From positions 4,340,001 to 4,404,000 of the forward strand of contig NZ_CP109190.1 in assembly GCF_041438805.1 (NCBI RefSeq): a stretch of 64,000 nucleotides of DNA. Reading direction: 5' to 3'. The stretch is from Streptomyces sp. NBC_01707 (GTDB lineage Bacteria > Actinomycetota > Actinomycetes > Streptomycetales > Streptomycetaceae). The notes under the pieces were generated by a model. That model was not told the DNA's origin, did not search any database, and saw only the letters and a program-made list of their open reading frames with translations. Position numbers and translations under genes: made by a program. How positions within the stretch are numbered: position 1 is the stretch's first letter; every line of letters starts with the position of its first letter. Of the stretch, positions 24,776-41,671 are shown in pieces.

Positions 24776-24915
24776 AGATCGTGCTGGTAGCCGGGTCGCA
24801 GTGGACAAAACGGCACGTGAGCGGTGGTGGGGCGAGGGGATCCGGGGCCGGGCGGTGCCCGTGGTCCGGACGGAGTGGTCCGAACACGACGGGGAACCGC
24901 CCGGCGACGGGCCGG

Positions 24916-24934
24916 GGACCGCCCTCAGCGGTCC
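24916..24934 (-). terminator. Short hairpin after the 11-mer repeat gene
   Basis: GGACCGC (24916-24922) pairs with GCGGTCC (24928-24934), 5-nt loop, 8 bp past the minus-strand stop. Modest strength. Confidence 0.5.
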
Positions 24935-24942
24935 GAGAGGTC

Positions 24943-26160
24943 TCAGACCCCCTGGGCCCGGTACTCCGGAGCGGTGAAGGACGGCACCGCGTCGGTGACG
25001 AAGTCGGGGGCGACCGATGTCAGACCCCGCGCACCGTGCGCCACGTTGTCGACGGCCGGGCGCGCGTCACCGCCTGCCGTGCCAACGAGGCCGCCCGCGA
25101 ACGGCTGCACCCGCGCGCCGACACCCTGCGCCAGCGGCATCACCTGGGTCGCGACACCCTGTGCGAACGGGGCGACCGCGTCCCCGGTCAGTCCTTGGGC
25201 CAACGGCTGCGCCCCGGAGACGACACCTCCCGCGAACGGCTGCACGTCGGAGACGACTGCCCCGGCGAACGGCTGCACCTCGGAGACGACACTCCCGGCG
25301 AACGGCTGCACGTCGGAGACCACACCCCCGGCGAACGGCTGGACCGCGCCGACCGCGCCGTACGTCAGCGGCCGGACCTCGGCCGTGACGCCGTGCACGA
25401 ACGGCAGGGCGGCCTGCTCGACGACACCGTCGGCGAACGGAGCGACCTCGGAGACCACACCCTGGACCAGGGTGCCGACGTCTCCGAGCGCCTGGTCGAC
25501 GACCGGCAGCACCGCGGAGACCGCCTCGGCGGCGATGGGCGGGAGCACGGCGTCGGAGGTCTGACCGACGACCGGCCCGGCCTCGGTGAGAGCACCCTGG
25601 GCCGCGTCCTGGACGGTGCCCTGCGCGGTGGTCCCGGCGCCGTCGGCGGTGCTCCGCACATAGCCGGGGATCTGCTCGATCGGGCCGAAGAGGTAGTCGA
25701 TCGGCGCGTCGGGCGCGGCCGGGACGTCGTAGCCGGGAAGGCCCTGCAGGTCCTGCAGGGCGGTTGTGCCGGACAGTCCGGACAGGTCGTGCACGGCCCG
25801 TGCGCCGTGGACGTCCACGCCGTCGGCGCGGTCGACGGCGCCCGTGAGCTTGCCCGCGACTCCGGCGGACTGGTGCTCGAGGCCGCCCGTGACGCGGTCG
25901 ACCTGCCCAGCGGCCTTGGCGCCCGGGCCGGACGTCGCCTGCGCGACCACGACCTCGGCAGCTGCCTTCGCCCCGGCGGTCTCCGTCCGCACGGTGTCCT
26001 TGAGCTCCGCGACCCCGTCGACGACGTCGGCGGCGTCGTCGGGGGTGGAGAGCGGAACGGAGACAGGCAGCTCGTCCGCACTGGCTACGGCGGTCCCGAG
26101 GGCCCACATTCCGGTGGCCGTTGCGGCGACTGCTATGGAACGGCGGATGTTCTGGTGCAT
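24943..26160 (-). CDS. Secreted protein with 11-residue repeats
   Basis: 405 residues. A signal peptide is clear (basic MHQNIRRSI, then hydrophobic to about ASADE at 30). Residues 45-200 are Ala/Gly/Val/Asp-rich helical sequence. Residues 241-360 are eleven near-tandem 11-residue units of consensus P-F/L-A-x-G-V-V-x-x-V-Q, two units being 12 long. There are no cysteines and no cell-wall anchor. Eleven-residue periodicity in an Ala/Val/Gly background is seen in amphipathic helix proteins (LEA, apolipoprotein-like). That similarity is of pattern only. It follows the next upstream gene by 106 bp, both secreted and low-complexity, probably one operon. Confidence 0.72.
   Translation of the reverse strand: MHQNIRRSIAVAATATGMWALGTAVASADELPVSVPLSTPDDAADVVDGVAELKDTVRTETAGAKAAAEVVVAQATSGPGAKAAGQVDRVTGGLEHQSAGVAGKLTGAVDRADGVDVHGARAVHDLSGLSGTTALQDLQGLPGYDVPAAPDAPIDYLFGPIEQIPGYVRSTADGAGTTAQGTVQDAAQGALTEAGPVVGQTSDAVLPPIAAEAVSAVLPVVDQALGDVGTLVQGVVSEVAPFADGVVEQAALPFVHGVTAEVRPLTYGAVGAVQPFAGGVVSDVQPFAGSVVSEVQPFAGAVVSDVQPFAGGVVSGAQPLAQGLTGDAVAPFAQGVATQVMPLAQGVGARVQPFAGGLVGTAGGDARPAVDNVAHGARGLTSVAPDFVTDAVPSFTAPEYRAQGV
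25081..25440 (-). repeat. 33-bp coding tandem repeats
   Basis: About eleven units of about 33 bp encoding residues 241-360. The best-kept block (about 25220-25345) has four units sharing GCGAACGGCTGCACGTCGGA-like cores. Recent internal duplication is likely in that block; outer units have diverged. Confidence 0.8.
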
Positions 26161-26266
26161 GTGTGTCAGATCCTTCGAATACGTTTCGGCGGTCCGGAGT
26201 CGTCCGGACGGCGGGCAGACCTGTTCCGCCCCCGCGCGGCAGGTCGAGGCGGGGGAACGGCCTGCC

Positions 26267-27319
26267 CTAGCCGGGGAATTCGAGGATGTCGCCGGACCTG
26301 TCGCGCATCGGGGCGACGGTCGCCGGAAGACCGGCACCGCGGACGAGCCCGCAGGGGGCACCGGCCGCGAACGGAACCGCGTGCTGTTCGCCGCCGCGTG
26401 GCCCGTGGGCCTCGGTGATGGAGGGGTGTACGAAGCCACCACGGGGATCGAGGGGGGCCCGCTCGGGCGCCGGCCCGTACCGCGGCGCGGGTACTCGGCT
26501 GTCCGTCCCGCTCGCGGAGGTGCCGTTCGGCAGGGCGGCGAACTGCCGTGCCTGGCCGGCTTCAGAGGTGTACCCGCAGACCGGACGTGGTGCGGGTGCG
26601 GCGGCGCGCGCGGCGCCACCGCCGGTGGAACCATGGCCCGGACGCCCCTCGGCAGAGGGCTCGACGACGGTGAGCGGAAGCAGCAGCCGGGCGGGCAGCG
26701 CCCACACCTCCGGGAGCACTCCGGCAGCGCTGTCGACGGCCGTGCCGACACCCTCGACCAGCTCGCCCACGGGCCGGGCGAGGTACCGGACGGTGTCCCG
26801 CGTCGTCCCGACGACCGACCGGGCACGGGCGACGGTCGTCCCGGAGTCGGTGGCGACGGAGGTCGTGGCGGAGGTGGCGGAGACCGGCACGGCGGACGCA
26901 GAGGTGCTGGAAGCCGTGGAGGCCCTGGAAGGCGAAGTGGCGGATGCGGCGGTGGAAGCGCCCCTCGGCCCGGCGTGCACTTCAGCAGCCGGCGCGCCCG
27001 AAGGCTCTGCGGCCGGAACGTGTGACGCCACCGGGGCCGAGGCGTCCGGGACCCCCGTCGCCGGTGCGGCGTCCGGGACGCCCACGGGCTCGGCTGCCAC
27101 CTCGACGGCCCTGTCCTGCGCCCCTGCCCCGTTCACAACTGCCGCCCCTGCGGCGGGAAGCGACGGTACGGGTGCCTGCGCCGCGTGTGCCTCGGCTCCG
27201 AAGACGAGGCCGAGGGCCAGCAGTCCGCCGAGGAACAGCACCACCTGCAGCGCGCGCCGGCCGACCGCTCCGCGCACCGGGCGCGGGTCGGCGACAGGAC
27301 GAACAACTGCAGCGGTCAC
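26267..27319 (-). CDS. Secreted/anchored low-complexity protein
   Basis: 350 residues from a GTG. A hydrophobic segment at about 25-47 (LQVVLFLGGLLALGLVFGAEAHA) acts as a signal peptide or anchor. A 130-residue Ala/Val/Pro/Ser/Thr-rich stretch follows (about 48-165). A more complex region at 165-225 (RSVVGTTRDTVRYLARPVGEL, VLPEVWALPARLLLPLTVV) precedes a Pro/Gly/Ala-rich end with two cysteines. No known domain is recognised. The charge and composition suggest an exported structural protein. Likely co-transcribed with the 11-mer repeat gene. Confidence 0.6.
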   Translation of the reverse strand: MTAAVVRPVADPRPVRGAVGRRALQVVLFLGGLLALGLVFGAEAHAAQAPVPSLPAAGAAVVNGAGAQDRAVEVAAEPVGVPDAAPATGVPDASAPVASHVPAAEPSGAPAAEVHAGPRGASTAASATSPSRASTASSTSASAVPVSATSATTSVATDSGTTVARARSVVGTTRDTVRYLARPVGELVEGVGTAVDSAAGVLPEVWALPARLLLPLTVVEPSAEGRPGHGSTGGGAARAAAPAPRPVCGYTSEAGQARQFAALPNGTSASGTDSRVPAPRYGPAPERAPLDPRGGFVHPSITEAHGPRGGEQHAVPFAAGAPCGLVRGAGLPATVAPMRDRSGDILEFPG

Positions 27320-27422: not shown

Positions 27423-28655
27423 TTACTGATGGGTCTGCTTGTCCGGTATGGGCAGTGGCCTCTTCTCCAGCGCCGCGGCCATCACCTCCGGGAAGAGATC
27501 CGGGGTGCACGCGAACGCCGGTGCGCCCAGTGCGCCGAGCGCCGCCGCGTGTTCACGGTCGTAGGCGGGCGCACCCTCGTCGGACAGGGCGAGCAGCGTC
27601 ACGAACTGCACACCGGAGGCCTTCATCGCGGCGACGCGCTTCAGCATCTCGTTGCGGATACCGCCCTCGTAGAGGTCGCTGATGAGGACGACGACCGTCT
27701 CGGCCGGGCGGGTGATCCTGGACTGGCAGTAGGCGAGTGCCCGGTTGATGTCGGTGCCACCGCCGAGCTGGGTGCCGAAGAGCACGTCGACGGGGTCGTC
27801 GAGCTGGTCCGTGAGGTCGACGACGGCCGTGTCGAAGACGACGAGCCTGGTCCGCAGCGTCCGCATGGAGGCGAGTACCGCGCCGAAGACGGAGGCGTAG
27901 ACGACGGAAGCCGCCATCGATCCCGACTGGTCGATGCAGAGGATGACGTCCTTCTTCACCGCCTGCGCTGCCCGCCCGTAACCGATGAGTCGTTCGGGGA
28001 CGACCGTCCCGGCTCCGTCCCCGCCGGGGAGCGGCAGGTAGTTCTTGAGGTTGGCCCGGATGGTGCGGTCCCAGTCGATGTCGCGGTGGCGGGGTCTGTT
28101 GATCTTCGCCGAGCGGTCGAGCGCGCCGGTGAGCGTGGCCCTCGTACGGGTGGCGAGCCGCCTCTCCAGGTCGTCGACGACCTTGCGTACGACCGCTCGT
28201 GCCGTCTCCTTCGTCGTCTCGGGCATGGCCTTGTTGAGCGAGAGCAGCGTTCCGACGAGATGGACGTCCGCCTCGACGGCCTCCAGCATCTCCGGCTCCA
28301 GCAGCAGCGCGGACAGACCCAGCCGTTCGATCGCATCGCGCTGCATGACCTGGACGACGGAGCTCGGAAAGTACGTACGGATGTCGCCGAGCCAGCGGGC
28401 GACGGAGGGAGCGGAGCCGCCGAGTCCGGCTGAGCGGTCGCTCCCGCCCCGGCCGCCGGGCCCGCCTCCGCCGCCGTACAGCGCGTTCAGTGCGCCGTCC
28501 ATCGCGGCATCCCGTCCGGCGAGGGTGCAGCCGGTGCTCTCGGCGCTGTCCCCGCCGAGCACCATGCGCCAGCGCCGCAGCCGTTCGCCGTCCACCGCGC
28601 CGCGTCCGGCCCCTGCCCCGGTCCTCGATGTTCCTGTGTCCGTCACCGTCTTCAT
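27423..28655 (-). CDS. von Willebrand factor A domain protein of the MoxR module
   Basis: 410 residues. The vWA domain occupies about residues 228-400 with an intact MIDAS: DQSGS (in VILCIDQSGSM), the threonine in LGGGTDINRAL and the aspartate in LISDLYEGG. The N-terminal half is helical (LGLSALLLEPEMLEAVEADVHLV; TARAVVRKVVDDLERRL). It is CoxE/YehP-like. MIDAS proteins bind metal-dependent ligands and pair with MoxR AAA+ ATPases as chaperone-like complexes. The ATG at 28655 overlaps the DUF5682 stop by 4 nt, so it is third in a tightly coupled operon MoxR–DUF5682–vWA. Confidence 0.87.
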   Translation of the reverse strand: MKTVTDTGTSRTGAGAGRGAVDGERLRRWRMVLGGDSAESTGCTLAGRDAAMDGALNALYGGGGGPGGRGGSDRSAGLGGSAPSVARWLGDIRTYFPSSVVQVMQRDAIERLGLSALLLEPEMLEAVEADVHLVGTLLSLNKAMPETTKETARAVVRKVVDDLERRLATRTRATLTGALDRSAKINRPRHRDIDWDRTIRANLKNYLPLPGGDGAGTVVPERLIGYGRAAQAVKKDVILCIDQSGSMAASVVYASVFGAVLASMRTLRTRLVVFDTAVVDLTDQLDDPVDVLFGTQLGGGTDINRALAYCQSRITRPAETVVVLISDLYEGGIRNEMLKRVAAMKASGVQFVTLLALSDEGAPAYDREHAAALGALGAPAFACTPDLFPEVMAAALEKRPLPIPDKQTHQ

Positions 28656-31039
28656 CCTGTTGCCCCCAGCGGTTCCATTGCGTTGTCGACGGTGTCCGCG
28701 TCGGTCCCTCCGGCGTCCCCGTCGTCCAGCCCCAGCAGCAGCCGCAGTACGGGCACCACCGCCTTCGCCCGGTCCTCGTCGAGGGCGGGACCGAATCCGG
28801 GGGCTGTCGTGCCGGTGACGGTCCCGGCCGGCCCGCCGGTGGCCGGGCCGCGGCGTACGAGCTCGCCCAGCGTGCGCCTTACGCCCGGTTCGTAGGCCGA
28901 GAAAGTACGGCGCAGCAGCGGCAGTACATCGGTGAACGTGTCCGCGGGGACTCCGGCCAGCCAGGCGTCGACCAGGCCGAGCAGCCGCTCGTCGTGGACG
29001 AGGAGCATGCCGCCCCCACCGGCCCCGCCGACGAAGCCCTCGATCCAGGCCGCGGCTTCGGCCGGAGGTGTGCCGGGCAACAGGGCGAGGCCCATCAGCC
29101 GTGCCGCCTCGTCCTCTTCGAGGCGCCCCTCGTCGAGCAGCAGCCGGGCCGCCCGGCCACGGATGACGCCGGCGACGGTGTCCCGGGCGGCCAGCTTGTG
29201 CAGCACGGCCGTCCAGCGCTCGCGGAGCCCGTCCGCCGGTACCGCACCGGCGAGCAGCCCGATCGCGGTGTGCACCCCGTCCACCTGGCGGCGCAGTTCG
29301 GCCGCGCCGTCGGCGTCCAGTCCGGTACAAGCGGGCGGCAGTCCGACGCAGATCCGCTCGGCGAGCCCGGCCGCGACCTCACCGAGCGCCGCTGTGTCCG
29401 TGGACCGCACGTCCCCGTACCGCAGGGTCCGGGCCAGGGCGGGCAGCGCGTCGGCGAGGTGGCCGACGTCGGAGTCGAGCGCGGCCCGGTCGGCGAGCGC
29501 CCGCATCACGACGGGCAGCGCGTCGGGCAGTTCGGCGAGGAGGCAGCACTCGGCGAGCGCGGTGACCTCGGCGAGCGCGGTCGCCGACACGGCCTCCGAT
29601 TCCGCTTTGGCGGTCGCGGCGGTCAGCACGGTGGTGCCCCAGATCCCGGCCTCGGCGACCTGTACGTACAGCTCGGGCTCCCAGCGCAGCCGCCAGCTCT
29701 CCCTGAACGTGCCGGTGCTCCCCCGGCCGGCGGCCGGTTCGCCCCATCCGACGGCGAGGAGCCGGAGCCGGTGCAACAGGCGGCTGCGCGCCGCATCCGT
29801 GTCCTTGCGGAGATCGAGCTCCAACTCGCGCTCCAGCGCCTCCGGTTTGAGCCGCAGCGTGCGCTGGAGCCGGTCGAGGTCGCGCTGCAACGGCACGGCG
29901 GGGGCGGTGTCCGGCACCTCTCCGAGCGTCTCGCCGACGATGAGCCGGTCCTGTACGAGCGCGAGCGGCACGTCCGAGCCCTCGCACATCACGGCCCGGA
30001 TCGCGTCGGTCGTCTCGCTCAGCCCGGGGAGCGGTCGGCCACGCAGAGCCGCGAGGGTTCCTGCGAGCCGCACAGCCTCGATGACATGGGCGGACGACAC
30101 GAACCGGTCCTCGTCGCGCAGGAGTCCGGCGACCTTGGTCATCCACCGTTCGATCGGCCGGTCGGGGGCGCCGAAGAGGTGTCCGTACCAACCGGGCGAG
30201 TCGATCCCCGCCCCGTAACCGCTGTGCCGGGCGAGCCGCCGATGGGTCCAGGGAACCCAGGTCATCTCGGTCTTGACCTTGGGCAGCCCCTTGAGAAGGG
30301 CCCTGTCGGCGCTGACGGTCGTCCTCGCTCCGAGCGCGGGCACATGCCAGGCTCCGCAGACGACGACCACGTCGTCCCCGAACTCCCTCCGTGCAGCGCG
30401 AAGTCGGATCCGCATGTATGCCTCGCGGACGGCGTCGCGGGGGTGCCCGCCGTCCCCGTACACCTCGCGCAACGCCGTCATCGCCTCGCCGAGGGCGGCG
30501 AACGGGGCCCGCGGGTCCACGAGCCGCCCGTCCGGTGTGCGGTGCTCGACGACGTCCTCCCACCAGCGCTCGGGGTCGTCGTACCCGGCGGCCTCGGCAA
30601 GGACCCCGATGGGATCGATCGGAGGTGCGACCACCGCGCCGCCGGCGTCGCCCGCTCGCCCCTGTTCCTCGTCGTGGTCCGCACCCGGGGCCGAGGAGTC
30701 CGTCATGGCCAGGGAGTGCGCCGCAGGCAGGTCGATGAAACGGACGGGCACGTCGTGGCGGAGCGCCCAGCGGATCGCGACCCACTCGGGCGAGAACTCT
30801 GCGAGCGGCCAGAACGCCGCCCGGCCCGGGTCGTCCACCGCGTGGGCGAGCAACGCCACCGGTGGTCGCATCCGCTCGTCGGCGGCGAGCGGCAGCAGTG
30901 CGTCGGCCTCGGGCGGCCCCTCGATGAGGACGGCCCGAGGTCCGGCGGCGTCCAGCGCCGCACGGACCGCGCGGGCCGATCCGGGACCGTGGTGCCGGAT
31001 CCCGAGCAGCAGCGGCCCGGTGGGCGCGGCCCCGGTCAC
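28652..31039 (-). CDS. DUF5682 protein with TraB/TIKI/EreA-like metal site
   Basis: 795 residues from a GTG. The first about 250 residues carry two GxxH motifs (G13-IR-H16 in LLGIRHHGPGSAR; G229-AW-H232 in VVCGAWHVPAL), an acidic residue in VLIEGPPEA (E40) and an R-x3-M element (VREAYMRI, about 204-211) just before the second motif. This order matches the TraB/TIKI/EreA/ChaN superfamily of metal-dependent hydrolases. Residues 250-795 are long helical sequence, probably solenoid-like. It overlaps the MoxR stop (GTGA, 4 nt) and the vWA start (ATGA, 4 nt). As I recall, E. coli YehM is the corresponding protein of the yehLMPQ set. Catalytic activity is inferred. Confidence 0.85.
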   Translation of the reverse strand: MTGAAPTGPLLLGIRHHGPGSARAVRAALDAAGPRAVLIEGPPEADALLPLAADERMRPPVALLAHAVDDPGRAAFWPLAEFSPEWVAIRWALRHDVPVRFIDLPAAHSLAMTDSSAPGADHDEEQGRAGDAGGAVVAPPIDPIGVLAEAAGYDDPERWWEDVVEHRTPDGRLVDPRAPFAALGEAMTALREVYGDGGHPRDAVREAYMRIRLRAARREFGDDVVVVCGAWHVPALGARTTVSADRALLKGLPKVKTEMTWVPWTHRRLARHSGYGAGIDSPGWYGHLFGAPDRPIERWMTKVAGLLRDEDRFVSSAHVIEAVRLAGTLAALRGRPLPGLSETTDAIRAVMCEGSDVPLALVQDRLIVGETLGEVPDTAPAVPLQRDLDRLQRTLRLKPEALERELELDLRKDTDAARSRLLHRLRLLAVGWGEPAAGRGSTGTFRESWRLRWEPELYVQVAEAGIWGTTVLTAATAKAESEAVSATALAEVTALAECCLLAELPDALPVVMRALADRAALDSDVGHLADALPALARTLRYGDVRSTDTAALGEVAAGLAERICVGLPPACTGLDADGAAELRRQVDGVHTAIGLLAGAVPADGLRERWTAVLHKLAARDTVAGVIRGRAARLLLDEGRLEEDEAARLMGLALLPGTPPAEAAAWIEGFVGGAGGGGMLLVHDERLLGLVDAWLAGVPADTFTDVLPLLRRTFSAYEPGVRRTLGELVRRGPATGGPAGTVTGTTAPGFGPALDEDRAKAVVPVLRLLLGLDDGDAGGTDADTVDNAMEPLGATG

Positions 31040-32148
31040 GCGGAGACCTCGCGGCAGGCGCGGTAGAAGTCCTTCCAGCCGTCCCGCTCGCGGACCACCG
31101 TCTCCAGGTACTCCTGCCAGACCACCCGGTCCGCCGCAGGGTCCCGGACGACGGCGCCGAGGATGCCGGCCGCGACATCGCCGGGGCGCAGCACTCCGTC
31201 GCCGAAGTGGGCGGCGAGCGCCAGGCCGTTGGTGACGACGGAGATGGCCTCGGCCGTCGAGAGCGTGCCCGAAGGGGACTTGAGCTTGGTGCGGCCGTCG
31301 GTCGTGACACCGTCGCGCAGTTCACGGAAGACCGTGACCACGCGGCGGATCTCGGCCATGCCGTCGGGGGCGGCCGGCAGGTCGAGCGAGCGCCCGATCT
31401 GGTCGACGCGCCGGGACACGATGTCGACCTCCGCGTCGGGCGTGGCGGGCAGCGGCAGCACGACCGTGTTGAACCGGCGGCGCAGGGCGCTGGACAGCTC
31501 GTTGACCCCTCGGTCGCGGTCGTTGGCCGTCGCGATGACGTTGAACCCGCGGACGGCCTGGACCTCCTGGCCGAGCTCGGGGAGCGGAAGCGTCTTCTCC
31601 GACAGGATCGTGATGAGCGAGTCCTGCACATCGGCAGGGATACGGGTGAGCTCCTCGATCCGCGCGGTCATGCCCTCGGACATCGCACGCATCAGAGGGC
31701 TGGGCACCAGTGCGTCGCGGCTGGGCCCGTGCGCCAGCAACTGCGCGTAGTTCCACCCGTAACGCACGGCCTCCTCGGGCGTGCCCGCAGTGCCCTGGAC
31801 CAGCAGCGTCGAGTCGCCGCTGACTGCAGCCGCGAGATGCTCGGAGACCCATGTCTTGGCGGTGCCGGGAACGCCGAGGAGCAACAGGGCACGGTCGGTG
31901 GCGAGCGTCGTCACGGCTACCTCGACGAGGCGGCGCGGGCCCACATATTTGGGTGTGATCACTGCCCCGTCCGGCAGGACGTCGCCGAGCAGATAGGTGG
32001 CCACGGCCCAGGGCGACAGCTTCCAACGCTCGGGCCGCGGGCGGTCGTCGGCGGCCGCGAGCGCCTTCAGCTCGTCGGCGAAAGCGTCCTCGGCATGCGG
32101 GCGCAGAGCCTCTGCGCGGATGCCGGCGGTGGTTTCGGACACGGTCAT
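31036..32148 (-). CDS. MoxR-family AAA+ ATPase (YehL-like)
   Basis: 370 residues, start MTVSETTAGIRAEAL after GGAGGGGGATCC. The AAA+ core has Walker A LLLGVPGTAKTW (about 103-114). The Walker B region reads ARIEELTRIPADVQ, with Glu in place of the usual first Asp (IEE rather than ADE). Sensor 1 is VIATANDRDRG and the arginine-finger region is SSALRRRFN. The C-terminal lid segment follows. MoxR ATPases remodel or insert cofactors into vWA-partner complexes. First gene of the three-gene operon and divergent from the SWIM–DUF5691 pair. Confidence 0.9.
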   Translation of the reverse strand: MTVSETTAGIRAEALRPHAEDAFADELKALAAADDRPRPERWKLSPWAVATYLLGDVLPDGAVITPKYVGPRRLVEVAVTTLATDRALLLLGVPGTAKTWVSEHLAAAVSGDSTLLVQGTAGTPEEAVRYGWNYAQLLAHGPSRDALVPSPLMRAMSEGMTARIEELTRIPADVQDSLITILSEKTLPLPELGQEVQAVRGFNVIATANDRDRGVNELSSALRRRFNTVVLPLPATPDAEVDIVSRRVDQIGRSLDLPAAPDGMAEIRRVVTVFRELRDGVTTDGRTKLKSPSGTLSTAEAISVVTNGLALAAHFGDGVLRPGDVAAGILGAVVRDPAADRVVWQEYLETVVRERDGWKDFYRACREVSA

Positions 32149-32200
32149 GGATCCCCCTCCAGATCGGTCGACCGGATGTGGTTCCCACCGTGCACCATGC

Positions 32201-32255
32201 CACTGACAGTCGGTCGTTCCCACGGCCTTTCCGCAGGTCGGAGCGATTGTCAGTG
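32201..32255. promoter_or_regulatory. Inverted-repeat operator in the divergent promoter of the MoxR/SWIM module
   Basis: Arms CACTGACAGTCG (32201-32212) and CGATTGTCAGTG (32244-32255) are complementary at 11 of 12 positions, with a centre-to-centre distance of 43 bp. It lies between MoxR (start 32148) and SWIM (start 32277), so one regulator could control both operons. TACCGT at 32264-32269 ends 7 nt before the SWIM ATG and may be a leaderless -10. Confidence 0.55.
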
Positions 32256-32276
32256 CCCCGCCCTACCGTCGTTGCC

Positions 32277-33677
32277 ATGCTGCTAACTCACGGGGGAGAA
32301 CCCTTGCGCACCGCTGCTCCGGTGGTGCGCTGGACGGTGGAGCAGGTCCTGGCACTGGCTCCTGACGAGGCGTCACGCAAGGCCGGCGGCAGGCTCGGTT
32401 CGGCCGGTCCATGGTCCGGCGCGGGCTGCGACGCATCGGGTTCGGTGTGGGGGCTGTGCAAGGGAAGCGGGAGCAAGCCGTACCGGACGGTGGTCGACAC
32501 GACCGGCCCCGCATACAAGTGCAGCTGCCCCAGCCGGAAGTTCCCGTGCAAGCACGCGCTGGGGCTGCTGCTGCTCTGGGCGTCGGACGAGGCGGCGCTC
32601 GGACCGGCGGAGGTGCCGGACTGGGCAGGGGAGTGGCTGGACGGCCGTCGCAGCCGGGCGCCGCAGAAGACCGACCGGGCCGGGGACGGCACGGTCGGCG
32701 CCGGTACGGGCTCCGCCGATCCGGCGGCCGCGAGGCGCCGGGCCGAGCGCCGGGCCGAGCGGATCACCGGCGGTGCGCAGGAGTTGGAGCAGCGGCTGAC
32801 GGATCTGCTGCGCGGAGGCCTGGCGGCGACCGATCAGTCGGGGTACGGGCTGTGGGAGGAGACGGCGGCCCGCATGGTGGACGCGCAGGCACCGGGACTG
32901 GCGGGACGGGTAAGGGAGTTGGGGGCCATCCCGGCGTCCGGTCCCGGGTGGCCGGTGCGGCTTCTGGAGGAGTGCGCGCTGCTGCATCTGCTGGACACCG
33001 CGTGGCTGGGCATCGCCCGACTGCCGGAGCCGCTGGCGGCGACGGTCCGCACGCGGGTGGGGCTGACGGCCTCCGCGGATGGCCCACCGGTCCGCGACCA
33101 CTGGCTGGTCCTCGCCCAGTACGACACCCCGGACGGCAAGATCGTCACGCGGCGGATCTGGCTGTACGGAAGGGACTCGGGCCGCACCGCACTGCTGCTG
33201 TCCTTCGGGGCGGCCGGACGCTCCCCAGGTCAGGCCCTGCCGGTGGGCGTCTCCATCGACGCCGAGCTCACGCCGTATCGAGGGGCCGGGCAGCTGAGGG
33301 CGGAACTGGGCGGGCAGTTCGGTGCGCCGGTACCGACCGGCACCCCCCCGCCGGGCTCCACGACGACGGCCGCGGTCGCCGCTTACGGACGCGCCCTTCG
33401 GGAAGACCCCTGGCTGGAGTCCTGGCCGGTCACCCTGCGCGCGGTCATACCGGTGCCGTCGGGCGACGGCTGGCAGCTGGTGGACCCGGCAGACGATACG
33501 GCCCTGCCCGTCGCCCCGTCGGCACTGTCCCGGCCCGGTCTGTGGAAGCTCGTGGCGATTTCCGGAGGCGCTCCGGTCACGGTCTTCGGCGAATGCGGCC
33601 ACCGCGGCTTCGACCCGCTCGCGGCCTGGGCCGACAGCTGCGACGACGGTGCGGCCGAGACCGTGCCGCTCATCTGA
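32277..33677 (+). CDS. SWIM zinc-finger protein (YehQ-like)
   Basis: 466 residues from the ATG at 32277. The SWIM motif is CxC-x6-CxH: C82, C84, C91, H93 in YKCSCPSRKFPCKHALG. SWIM fingers bind nucleic acid or protein. The rest is helical plus a beta-rich C-terminal half (PVRDHWLVLAQYDTPDGKIV; LVDPADDTALPVAPSAL) that is kept in family members. The ATG gives a probable leaderless mRNA. A TTG at 32304 with GGGGGAG 6 nt upstream is a serious alternative start and would remove nine residues. It is 17 bp before the DUF5691 gene and is part of the module with the divergent MoxR operon. Confidence 0.86.
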   Translation: MLLTHGGEPLRTAAPVVRWTVEQVLALAPDEASRKAGGRLGSAGPWSGAGCDASGSVWGLCKGSGSKPYRTVVDTTGPAYKCSCPSRKFPCKHALGLLLLWASDEAALGPAEVPDWAGEWLDGRRSRAPQKTDRAGDGTVGAGTGSADPAAARRRAERRAERITGGAQELEQRLTDLLRGGLAATDQSGYGLWEETAARMVDAQAPGLAGRVRELGAIPASGPGWPVRLLEECALLHLLDTAWLGIARLPEPLAATVRTRVGLTASADGPPVRDHWLVLAQYDTPDGKIVTRRIWLYGRDSGRTALLLSFGAAGRSPGQALPVGVSIDAELTPYRGAGQLRAELGGQFGAPVPTGTPPPGSTTTAAVAAYGRALREDPWLESWPVTLRAVIPVPSGDGWQLVDPADDTALPVAPSALSRPGLWKLVAISGGAPVTVFGECGHRGFDPLAAWADSCDDGAAETVPLI

Positions 33678-33694
33678 CCCCTGGAGGAGGACCG

Positions 33695-35311
33695 ATGCCC
33701 GCCACCGAACCGATGCCCGGTACGACCACCGCATGGGAAGAGCTCGTCACATCGGCGCTGCTCGGCACCGACCGCCGGCCGCTCCCGGCGGGAGCCGCGC
33801 CGGGGCCGATCACGCTGCTGGATGAGGCGGCTCTGCACACGGTGCGACGCAGAGCAGGGCTGCGGCCCGCGACTGCGGCCGCCCGTCCCGGGACGGCGCC
33901 CGCCGACCCGCGGCCACCCCTGCCGCCCGCCGCGCGCCGAAGGCTCGCCCAGCTGCTCGCCGACCGGTCGGCGCCGAGCGGCGGGGGCGGCCGACGCGGC
34001 ACGGCGCCCGATCTCACGGAGCTGATCCCGCAGTGGCTGGCCGCCGCCGATCGTCGTGGTTTCCGGGCCCCGGCGTCGCTGCTGCCACCCCTGCTGGACG
34101 CGGCCCGGGCACGTACCGACCTGCGGCCGCAGGCTCTGGCGTTCGCCGGTCCGCGCGGGCTGTGGCTGGCCGGGCTGAACCCCGAGTGGAAGTTCGCGCT
34201 GCGCGGCTCGCCGGGAAGCGCGCTGCTGCCCGATGTGACCGACGACGATGCGGTGCACCGGCTGTGGGAGGAGGGCCTGTTCGCCGAGCGCGTCGCCCTC
34301 CTCGGGGCCGTACGGGCACACGATCCGGGTGGTGCACTCGCGCTGCTGACCAGCACGTGGTCGACGGAGCGCGCCGAGGACCGGCTGATGTTCCTGGACT
34401 CGTTGCGTGCCGGGCTGTCCGCCGCGGACGAACCCTTCCTGGAGCAGGCCCTCTCCGACCGCAGCCGCAATGTGCGCGCGACTGCCGCCGAACTGCTGTC
34501 CGCACTGCCGGAGTCGGCGCTGGCCGGGCGGATGGCGGCCCGCGCTTCGTCGTGCGTGAACCCTGACCTGACAGTGGGCGCCGCGGCCGTCGCCGTGGAG
34601 GCCCCGCACGAATGCGACGCCGCGATGCAGCGCGACGGCGTCGTGGCGGTGCCGCCGTCCGGGCGGGGCGAACGATCCTGGTGGCTCGGCCAGTTGGTGG
34701 AGGCGACCCCGCTGTCCGTCTGGCCGGCGAGGTTCGGCGGGCGTACGGCGCAGGAGATCGTCGCCCTGCCCGTCGCCGACGGCTGGGGCGAGGAGCTGCG
34801 CGCCGCCTGGTGCCGGGCGGCGGTGCGGCAGCGCGACCCGGAGTGGGCGCGCGCCCTGCTCGGTGCCGCTTCGCTCCCCCCGTCGAACGGGCCCGGTACG
34901 GCGTCGCTCGCCGAGCGGTCGAAGCTCCTCGCCACGCTGCCCGGCGCGGAACGGGCCGCGTGGGTGGCCGATTTCGTGGCCGCGCACGGTCTGTCGGAGG
35001 CGTTCCAGCTCCTGGGCGTCTGCCCGGTCCCCTGGGCGGCGCCGCTCGGCAGATCGGTCGTCGACGCGCTCGACATCGCCCGCGACGCCGGTAGTTACCC
35101 GTGGAGCTTCAGCGGCGTCATGGGGCTGGCCGAGCGCTGCCTGAATCCGGCGGAGGCGGGCCGCCTGGAGGTCCTCACGACCACCCCGGACGAGCCGGAA
35201 GACGCGTCACCGGGCGCGGCCGGCTACTGGTCGGAGGCGTTCCGGCGCCTGGTCTCCACGCTGCGGCTGCGCGCGGTGATGGATGAGGAGCTGGGGGCGG
35301 AGACCGCGTAG
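33695..35311 (+). CDS. DUF5691 protein (HEAT-like solenoid)
   Basis: 538 residues, start after a textbook GGAGGAGG. It is helical throughout, with repeat-like stretches such as LTSTWSTERAEDRLMFLDSL and SDRSRNVRATAAELLSALP (about 252-270), the latter typical of HEAT repeats. Conserved-looking patches are TSALLGTDRRPLP near the start and RSWWLGQLVEATPL in the middle. No catalytic motif is visible. Its only strong clue is context: it is the partner of the SWIM protein across from MoxR–DUF5682–vWA. It probably serves as scaffold or substrate-binding subunit. Confidence 0.85.
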   Translation: MPATEPMPGTTTAWEELVTSALLGTDRRPLPAGAAPGPITLLDEAALHTVRRRAGLRPATAAARPGTAPADPRPPLPPAARRRLAQLLADRSAPSGGGGRRGTAPDLTELIPQWLAAADRRGFRAPASLLPPLLDAARARTDLRPQALAFAGPRGLWLAGLNPEWKFALRGSPGSALLPDVTDDDAVHRLWEEGLFAERVALLGAVRAHDPGGALALLTSTWSTERAEDRLMFLDSLRAGLSAADEPFLEQALSDRSRNVRATAAELLSALPESALAGRMAARASSCVNPDLTVGAAAVAVEAPHECDAAMQRDGVVAVPPSGRGERSWWLGQLVEATPLSVWPARFGGRTAQEIVALPVADGWGEELRAAWCRAAVRQRDPEWARALLGAASLPPSNGPGTASLAERSKLLATLPGAERAAWVADFVAAHGLSEAFQLLGVCPVPWAAPLGRSVVDALDIARDAGSYPWSFSGVMGLAERCLNPAEAGRLEVLTTTPDEPEDASPGAAGYWSEAFRRLVSTLRLRAVMDEELGAETA

Positions 35312-41487: not shown

Positions 41488-41671
41488 CGCTTGACGAGTC
41501 TAGGCCGCCGCACCGACACCGTGCGGCCGCATGGCGAACCGCACCCGGCGCACGGGCACACAGGGAGAGCGTGCGCCCACACCGCGTAGAGGAAGAGGGG
41601 GCGGCCCGGCCCGCATCCCCGGCTCCGCCGACAAGGTCACGAAAATGTATCGGGCATATCGAACATCAACC

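Follow-up and report, generated by a model that had tools for sequence, protein, structure and literature searches.

The window, a stretch of 64,000 nucleotides of a Streptomyces chromosome, contains five clustered genes whose products are a MoxR-type ATPase, a DUF5682 protein, a CoxE-type vWA protein, a SWIM zinc-finger protein and a DUF5691 protein. No assigned function for this gene set was found in the open-licence literature searched, and the locus raises the question of whether the five proteins act together and in which cellular process. On balance we favour the answer that the genes constitute one DNA-damage-response module, encoding a damage-induced remodelling machine built on AAA+ and vWA proteins, in which one subunit is hydrolase-like and others serve as adaptors for DNA or substrate.

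Layout and conservation of the five genes

Rereading the locus to the base reproduced exactly the coordinates, overlaps and gaps of the original prediction: a minus-strand group (MoxR, DUF5682, vWA) joined by 4-nt overlaps (GTGA and ATGA), a plus-strand pair (SWIM, DUF5691) spaced by 17 bp, and a divergent gap of 128 bp between moxR and the SWIM gene (Table 1). Profile searches, proposed at that time as a check, matched each of the five proteins to a Pfam family; a HEAT match of the DUF5691 protein fell below the Pfam cut-off (E 0.012). The Walker A (GVPGTAKT), IATAN and ALRRRF regions of the ATPase are kept across 10 aligned relatives, in all of which EE stands in place of DE at the Walker B acidic pair (position assigned by eye). 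The MIDAS motif of the vWA protein (DQSGS) is intact and kept in 9/9 aligned sequences, and the zinc ligands of the SWIM protein are kept in 10/10.

Table 1. Genes and intergenic elements of the locus (positions within the window).
Feature	Position	Strand	Remark
CoxE-type vWA protein, 410 aa	27423..28655	-	Pfam VWA_CoxE, 2.3e-60
DUF5682 protein, 795 aa	28652..31039	-	Pfam DUF5682, 6e-300
moxR, MoxR-type AAA+ ATPase (AAA_5, YehL-like), 370 aa	31036..32148	-	Pfam AAA_5, 2.7e-38
Divergent gap	32149-32276		
Candidate RecA-NDp/PafBC-type promoter motif toward MoxR, CTGTCAGTG-N8-CACGGT	32187..32209	-	CA replaces TA
Inverted-repeat arm, CACTGACA	32201-32208		
Third conserved element, GCAGGTC(A/G)GA	32233..32242	+	Seen by eye in inter-motif sequences; immediately 5′ of the SWIM-side motif
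Candidate RecA-NDp/PafBC-type promoter motif toward SWIM, TTGTCAGTG-N8-TACCGT	32247..32269	+	Sole exact consensus match in the 64-kb window
Inverted-repeat arm, TGTCAGTG	32248-32255		
SWIM zinc-finger protein, 466 aa, CxCx6CxH	32277..33677	+	Pfam SWIM, 6.1e-6, 26.1 bits (cut-off 19.6)
DUF5691 protein, 538 aa, weakly HEAT-like	33695..35311	+	Pfam DUF5691, 1.6e-175

Conservation was analysed in the best 80 Streptomycetaceae loci of one scan. All five genes occur in the same order at 66 of these, 13 of the remaining 14 loci reach contig ends, and L048 is the only one of the 80 without a vWA match despite about 1.7 kb of space. Both sucC and a B12-binding gene flank 62 of the 66 complete loci; of the four exceptions, L058 and L059 end at the contig, while L068 and L090 have 7.6 kb and no sucC. 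Together with the presence of yehL-Q (at least 80% cover) in 5155 of 5426 E. coli genomes, this bears out the earlier suggestion of a conserved core locus rather than a mobile island. Among 198 Actinomycetota genomes DUF5682 was detected in 17 and DUF5691 over cut-off in 16, the two being shared by 16, such that DUF5691 over cut-off was confined to genomes with DUF5682 (16/16; three sub-cut-off matches lie in genomes without it). Other phyla were sampled through plasmid-collection records and E. coli alone; among these, Rhizobium, Methylosinus and Deinococcus carry the module as a single colinear operon, and one Hymenobacter protein combines SWIM with DUF5691. Because gene order and co-occurrence are conserved and SWIM and DUF5691 can be parts of one protein, the five genes are best regarded, as originally proposed, as one functional module.

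Two putative divergent damage-type promoters

The inverted repeat previously noted in the 128-bp region is real; what had been missed is that its arms are best read as belonging to two RecA-NDp/PafBC-type damage promoters placed back to back, of which they form the cores, rather than as one hairpin operator. The mycobacterial PafBC/RecA-NDp regulon contains recA and other repair genes, and its consensus, tTGTCRgtg-8 nt-TannnT, is printed in PMC5656591. The SWIM-side motif matches this consensus exactly and the MoxR-side motif has two departures; the CA form of the motif was found 23 times in the whole genome versus 0 times for the control. New here is the recognition of the repeat as two divergent damage-type promoters kept in 78/78 testable loci (those with moxR and the SWIM gene among the best 80), counted with the pattern TGTCAG(A/T)G-N8-(C/T)AnnnT. 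A variant of the motif, TGTCAGAG, occurs at locus L092. The SWIM start is probably leaderless, because its ATG lies 29 bp past the start of the motif core, as does that of recA in the same genome. The third conserved element adjoins the MoxR-side motif in many species, again as judged by eye. A single hairpin or operator was rejected, since the 128 bp show ordinary folding as a single strand (z -1.31) and the arms appear to be separate promoter cores; a test of 11.7-bp spacing was set aside on account of its weak null (uniform distinct values) and the relatedness of the species.

In this genome the pattern TGTCRGTG-N8-TAnnnT gave 44 matches versus 1 for the reversed control. The genes downstream, whose names were read by eye and some of whose 44 frames are doubtful, include recA, uvrB, ung, ruvC, rarA, pcrA, xth and ogt. 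Seven further Streptomyces genomes, searched with a pattern one T longer, gave 10 to 40 matches each versus 0 or 1 for the control, and the motif is strongly over-represented in 8/8 Streptomyces genomes searched. In all eight paralogous modules found, the motif lies upstream of moxR on the module's strand (statements on loci L129-L136 rest on tblastn, family search and Pfam). The usual place of pafB-pafC is beside a Pup-ligase gene. Adjacent WYL matches at 7,784,632 and 7,785,589, about 2.1 kb past the second of two Pup-ligase-family genes, represent a pafB-pafC-like pair, named by this position and not by a PafB/PafC model. Damage-type control of the module in Streptomyces is well supported by sequence. 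PMC9380542 reports an initial search which suggested that S. venezuelae does not conserve the PafBC motif of M. smegmatis, and regards a LexA-independent response as still to be shown in Streptomyces; the abundance of the motif in eight Streptomyces genomes, and its position before repair genes in this one, bear on that point.

A different damage-type signal was observed in Deinococcus taeanensis. The homologous operon is preceded by the single TTAYGY-N5-RCRTAA site of a 430-kb plasmid, a candidate RDRM-like site that ends 20 bp before the first gene, SWIM, and agrees with 12/15 consensus positions. It resembles the DdrO sites listed in PMC8533742, which states that an RDRM site alone is not sufficient. 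In D. radiodurans, dr2173 (WGR) and drA0165-drA0166 (DUF4132) are reported to rise on DdrO depletion. Given the two damage promoters in Streptomyces and the DdrO-like site in Deinococcus, the module probably helps cells to cope with damaged or over-twisted DNA.

The DUF5682 protein and a proposed mechanism

The original suggestion that DUF5682 is a putative hydrolase survives as a possibility at the level of the fold. The AF2 model (pLDDT 79.4 for the full protein, 74.1 for the N-terminus) consists of an N-terminal alpha/beta domain (about residues 1-245) and a helical region. Three Tetrahymena complex IV rows head the VIA-align listing, seven of the top 10 chains are ChaN, HopBA1, EreC or Ere-like, and scores are 5.6 or less from rank 11 onward; we take the HopBA1, Ere-like and 'succinoglycan biosynthesis' entries to be superfamily members. 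The modelled N-terminal domain thus resembles the EreA/ChaN-like fold. Within it, E40 and H232 do not vary in sets of 13 and of 57 sequences and H16 is conserved at 90% or more; these lie near strand ends and may be counterparts of the EreC His-Glu-His set (H50, E78, H289). An hhalign comparison against six Ere-like frames returned a probability of 0.3% (L195 being a wrong frame), a PDB search with the DUF5682 profile found no match (best E 0.27), and Foldseek with the full model gave helical-repeat noise. The ChaN family, PF04187, had no match among the 60 genomes searched. DUF5682 may possibly be a hydrolase-like subunit.

According to the favoured model, DNA damage or abnormal supercoiling would generate single-stranded DNA and so activate PafBC, which would bring RNA polymerase to both divergent promoters. 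ATP would then drive the MoxR AAA+ ring as a remodelling motor, with the Mg-binding vWA protein as its coupling partner. SWIM and DUF5691 (in the other type DUF4132 proteins, some with WGR) would bring this motor to DNA or a DNA-bound protein; SWIM and WGR domains are linked to nucleic-acid binding. The target might be bound or hydrolysed by the EreA/ChaN-like domain of DUF5682 (His16, Glu40, His232). In this way, proteins sitting on DNA under damage or topological stress would be cleared or remodelled, with topA and gyrB affected indirectly.

The leading alternative, itself unlikely, is that the module works as a chaperone in the manner of CoxD-CoxE or RavA-ViaA, inserting a cofactor or metal to mature a single enzyme, and that its damage control reflects a demand for this enzyme after damage. 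No recurring enzyme gene was found in eight annotated neighbourhoods of other phyla, and the accessory SWIM and WGR domains point instead to nucleic acids; the CoxE-type vWA would fit such a chaperone, as would the action of known MoxR-vWA pairs in metal-cluster insertion (PMC7159879).

Eukaryotes resolve DNA-protein crosslinks by a route of protease plus p97. A bolder extension of the damage-response model, which we consider quite doubtful, would make the module a counterpart of this route in function and not by descent: adaptors (SWIM and DUF5691, or WGR-DUF4132) would position the damage-induced motor on DNA, where it would pull DNA-trapped proteins, topoisomerases included, into the EreA/ChaN-fold DUF5682 hydrolase, and the module would have been wired independently to each lineage's own damage regulator (PafBC in Streptomyces, DdrO in Deinococcus).

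A role in conflict or anti-phage defence, raised by the original prediction, is not supported and appears very improbable. The combination of MoxR, vWA and further components would suit it, as would two plasmid copies (L005, L011) near nuclease or restriction genes and a weak Pfam bpMoxR match; however, that match is below cut-off (22.4 bits versus 27). PADLOC returned only IetA, at E 0.013 and 0.038 and covering 29 residues of the ATPase, Pfam detected no variable effector domain among the five proteins, and DUF5682 occurs in 1 of 50,697 phage records. A defence island was rejected on these grounds and on the fixed, core chromosomal place of the genes, which are near-universal in Streptomyces and E. 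coli.

S. coelicolor SCO4804 is a probable ortholog of the DUF5682 protein, as judged from gene order, length and neighbours (SCO4808 presumably being sucC and SCO4800 icmB). It was published as an uncharacterised topA regulator in PMC8120823, in the text of which 'MoxR', 'SWIM' and 'DUF5682' do not occur. SCO4803-SCO4805 resemble the module in gene order, a secreted-protein neighbour and induction on TopA depletion, and SCO4804 has 815 aa versus 814 aa for the S. coelicoflavus counterpart; the published intergenic gaps of 103 and 171 bp (PMC8120823) are not those of S. coelicoflavus. The same source reports that the SCO4804 transcript rises eightfold on TopA depletion, that disruption lowers topA and gyrB transcripts, that overexpression raises both at 30 min, and that the protein binds DNA non-specifically. 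That DUF5682 chiefly regulates topoisomerase genes, as proposed there, would account for these transcript changes, but we judge it very improbable: PMC8120823 finds no specific binding to the topA promoter, terms the effect indirect and notes that the disruption is polar on sco4805; moreover, the modelled N-terminal fold resembles hydrolases, and relatives in E. coli and Deinococcus keep the same core partners. The topology phenotype of SCO4804 can instead be reinterpreted as part of a damage response.

Least probable of all is that the two operons share their regulation as neighbours but do not act jointly, which would suit the two transcription units of Streptomyces but not the colinear operons, the fused SWIM-DUF5691 protein or the confinement of DUF5691 to DUF5682 genomes.

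Relation to known systems

CoxD-CoxE and RavA-ViaA likewise pair an AAA+ MoxR protein with a CoxE-type vWA protein; to our knowledge they lack DUF5682, SWIM and DUF5691, and the ViaA equivalog model gave a weak match here (20.8 bits against a cut-off of 500). The MoxR-vWA ternary conflict systems (PMC7159879) share with the Streptomyces module a MoxR and a vWA protein with further components, whereas the module differs in its DUF5682, SWIM and DUF5691 partners, its place in the core genome and its putative damage-type promoters; in the main text of that paper 'SWIM', 'DUF5682' and 'YehL' do not occur. The mycobacterial PafBC/RecA-NDp regulon has the same promoter consensus, while the five-gene module is absent from its members named in the available text.

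A close parallel is the E. coli yeh locus, which the original prediction had correctly named: MoxR, DUF5682, CoxE-type vWA and SWIM occur together as the same core, and YehM, with 326 bits against the DUF5682 model, is probably the ortholog of the DUF5682 protein. In E. coli, yehF, yehH, yehI and yehK lie upstream of yehL-yehM-yehP-yehQ, the SWIM gene is at the 3′ end of the set, and DUF4132 (YehI) and WGR (YehF) take the place of DUF5691. DUF5691 as a remote DUF4132 was rejected, with no detectable homology (hhalign probability 0.8%, 5 and 6 sequences). Elsewhere in the Streptomyces genome a solitary WGR-DUF4132 gene carries a damage-type motif. The 24 kb scanned around the yeh locus contains no strict SOS box; a one-mismatch LexA box before yehF is no evidence alone, because 11 such boxes were found where about 7 are expected by chance. 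MolR is named as YehH, of the same locus, in PMC5541211, and is said in PMC8533742 to be described as a member of the LexA regulon. With a clustered YehLMPQ-type core, and DUF5691 instead of a DUF4132/WGR partner (type B), the Streptomyces set is filed as the DUF5691 type (type A) of a wider YehLMPQ kind. The favoured reading offers a testable function for a widespread set, which includes four y-genes of E. coli K-12 found in almost every E. coli genome.

Organization and conservation of the module

The original prediction had placed all five genes exactly, and its family names were borne out by Pfam for every one of them (see table). The junctions between the minus-strand genes are 4-nt overlaps, and the starts of the divergent moxR and SWIM genes lie 128 bp apart.

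Genes of the module and the two promoter motifs of the moxR–SWIM gap
Feature	Window position	Strand or direction	Basis or sequence
moxR	32148-31036	minus	Pfam
DUF5682	31039-28652	minus	Pfam
vWA	28655-27423	minus	Pfam
SWIM	32277-33677	plus	Pfam
DUF5691	33695-35311	plus	Pfam
SWIM-side promoter motif		toward SWIM	TTGTCAGTG-N8-TACCGT
MoxR-side promoter motif		toward MoxR	CTGTCAGTG-N8-CACGGT

The motor and MIDAS motifs are intact. Walker A, sensor and arginine regions are conserved in the ATPase (10 aligned sequences), the vWA protein retains the MIDAS sequence DQSGS (9/9 aligned sequences) and the SWIM finger its CxC...CxH zinc ligands (10/10). Placed by eye, the Walker B acidic pair of MoxR (window 31036-32148) reads EE instead of DE in every one of the 10 aligned sequences, including E. 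coli YehL.

The five genes form one conserved module. Among the best 80 Streptomycetaceae loci from one scan, 66 carry the complete set in the same order and orientation; for 13 of the 14 incomplete loci the contig breaks off no more than about 550 bp from the missing gene, and the other (L048) has no vWA match despite ample room. Both sucC and a B12-binding gene adjoin the module in 62 of the 66 complete loci, while the remaining four comprise two that run out of contig and two that have room yet lack sucC. Co-occurrence of the families, the check proposed originally, was also found: among 198 Actinomycetota genomes DUF5682 is present in 17, DUF5691 above the cut-off in 16, and both in 16 (Fisher p 1.2e-22, relatedness ignored), including all eight Streptomyces genomes. 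Three weaker DUF5691 matches, below the cut-off, fall in genomes without DUF5682.

Between sucC and the module lie two secreted-protein-like frames on the minus strand (24946-26826 and 26270-27319), neither with a Pfam match; because they overlap, at least one start must be wrong. The latter frame fits S. coelicolor SCO4806, a "secreted protein". A tRNA-Leu (gag) is called at 24862-24961 (minus), between sucC and these genes.

Divergent damage-type promoters

The inverted repeat originally noted in the 128-bp gap is present, and is reinterpreted here as two divergent promoters of the LexA-independent damage type, for which passages of PMC5656591 give the consensus tTGTCRgtg-8 nt-TannnT. In the host genome TGTCRGTG-N8-TAnnnT has 44 matches versus 1 for the reversed pattern, and TGTCAGTG-N8-CAnnnT has 23 versus 0 in the control. 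Among the genes identified by eye 3′ of these 44 matches are recA, uvrB, ung, ruvC, rarA, pcrA/uvrD, ogt and thyX, a dnaN-like gene, and genes for a DinG-like helicase, exonuclease III and a RecD-like helicase. Measured from the motif start, the chosen frame has its first start codon at 28-31 bp in 19 of the 44 cases and at 60-61 bp in 6; the distances are 29 bp for the SWIM gene and 60 bp for moxR. Using a pattern one base longer than that applied to the host, seven other Streptomyces gave 10 to 40 matches each versus 0 or 1 in controls, one same-class genome gave 5, and four other actinobacteria gave none. A further damage-type motif in the window, GTGTCGGTG-N8-TAGACT (41497-41519, minus; one mismatch), precedes a PcrA/UvrD-like helicase gene.

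A WYL pair adjoins a Pup-ligase gene in the host, the usual pafB-pafC place. Because ClgR also recognises promoters of this kind, according to passages of PMC5656591, PafBC is not the sole candidate regulator.

Both divergent motifs occur in all 78 loci with moxR and swim among the best 80 Streptomycetaceae loci. The motif is absent from the module head in 8 non-Streptomycetaceae actinobacterial loci, and no LexA-type box was found within 300 bp of the module heads in ten other loci scanned, both of which argue against wider claims. In 72 of 81 sequences (the window plus those 80 loci) the gap between motif cores clusters at 27-29, 38-40, 50-53, 62-63, 73-74 and 86-88 bp, with a best period of about 11.7-11.8 bp, statistics that are weakened by the shared ancestry of the loci; the remaining 9 have gaps of 122-579 bp. 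By eye, most of the 72 carry a third element, GCAGGTC(A/G)GA, directly upstream of either one motif or the other. One reading suggested by the stepped gap is helical phasing of face-to-face promoters.

This damage-type wiring recurs across modules. The window copy is the host's only DUF5682, and 6 of the 8 Streptomyces genomes among the 198 hold one or two extra modules each (eight in total), whose DUF5682 proteins belong to other subfamilies; Pfam confirmed DUF4132 in two of these modules, one of which also has WGR. In each of the eight the motif precedes moxR by 3.6 to 6.5 kb on the same strand as the module, and other module genes lie in between (chance expectation ~0.13 per 19-kb stretch, from genome motif densities). 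Another arrangement, colinear throughout, is found in the Streptomyces loci L135 and L136: it starts with the motif and a gene without a Pfam family and continues with vWA, MoxR and a DUF5682 at ~99 bits. L135 also has an LRV-repeat gene beyond these, on the opposite strand. A lone WGR–DUF4132 gene (1207 aa; L190:5125-8832, host genome at 2.15 Mb) has a damage-type motif 84 bp upstream.

A probable S. coelicolor counterpart and a proposed mechanism

Passages of PMC8120823 describe SCO4804 (815 aa), found by a transposon screen, whose disruption reduced topA and gyrB transcript and slightly slowed growth, with supercoiling unchanged. The insertion also lowered sco4805, TopA depletion raised SCO4804 and its neighbours eightfold, and the purified protein bound DNA non-specifically and did not bind TopA. 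SCO4804 is very probably the ortholog of the window DUF5682, with SCO4803 as MoxR and SCO4805 as vWA, given its length, its position ahead of both a secreted protein and sco4808, and the presence in S. coelicoflavus of a DUF5682 protein of 814 aa.

We propose that PafBC would activate the module promoters and that an ATP-driven MoxR ring would work with vWA as adaptor. The role of DNA or substrate adaptor may fall to SWIM and to DUF5691 or, in its place, DUF4132 proteins, and DUF5682 may be the subunit that acts on proteins attached to damaged or over-twisted DNA. In mycobacteria PafBC is crucial for surviving gyrase inhibition (passages of PMC11804915), a role that would join the damage promoters to the SCO4804 phenotype.

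Module types in other phyla

Plasmid records of Rhizobium, Methylosinus and Deinococcus hold a colinear single operon, SWIM–DUF5691–MoxR–DUF5682–vWA. In Methylosinus trichosporium the vWA gene is split over two short unannotated frames (L009:11214-12382), and this copy may be decayed. Hymenobacter fuses the SWIM finger and DUF5691 in one 1009-aa protein, the finger scoring 15.7 bits, under the 19.6 cut-off, yet keeping all four zinc ligands. In Fusobacterium the DUF5691 position is taken by a 637-aa gene that matches no Pfam family.

In the Deinococcus taeanensis operon the end of an RDR-like site, TTACGCCAGAAACATAA, lies 20 bp ahead of the SWIM start, and the 430-kb plasmid has no other match to TTAYGY-N5-RCRTAA. 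The site resembles the D. radiodurans recD and gyrA sites and agrees with the printed RDR consensus at 12/15 positions, although such a site alone is insufficient for DdrO binding (passages of PMC8533742). The same passages report that DdrO depletion strongly raised dr2173 (WGR) and drA0165-drA0166 (DUF4132), which they do not place in a DUF5682 module, and that MolR was described earlier as a LexA-regulon member.

There are two module types, in which the MoxR–DUF5682–vWA–SWIM core is accompanied by DUF5691 or by DUF4132, families with no detectable relationship. The E. coli yehI-K-L-M-P-Q locus, found at at least 80% cover in 5155 of 5426 complete genomes, shares this core with the window and differs in having DUF4132 in DUF5691's stead. 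Agrobacterium, Iodobacter and Sinorhizobium likewise combine the core with a DUF4132 protein replacing DUF5691, and that of Agrobacterium bears an N-terminal WGR domain, which E. coli YehI lacks.
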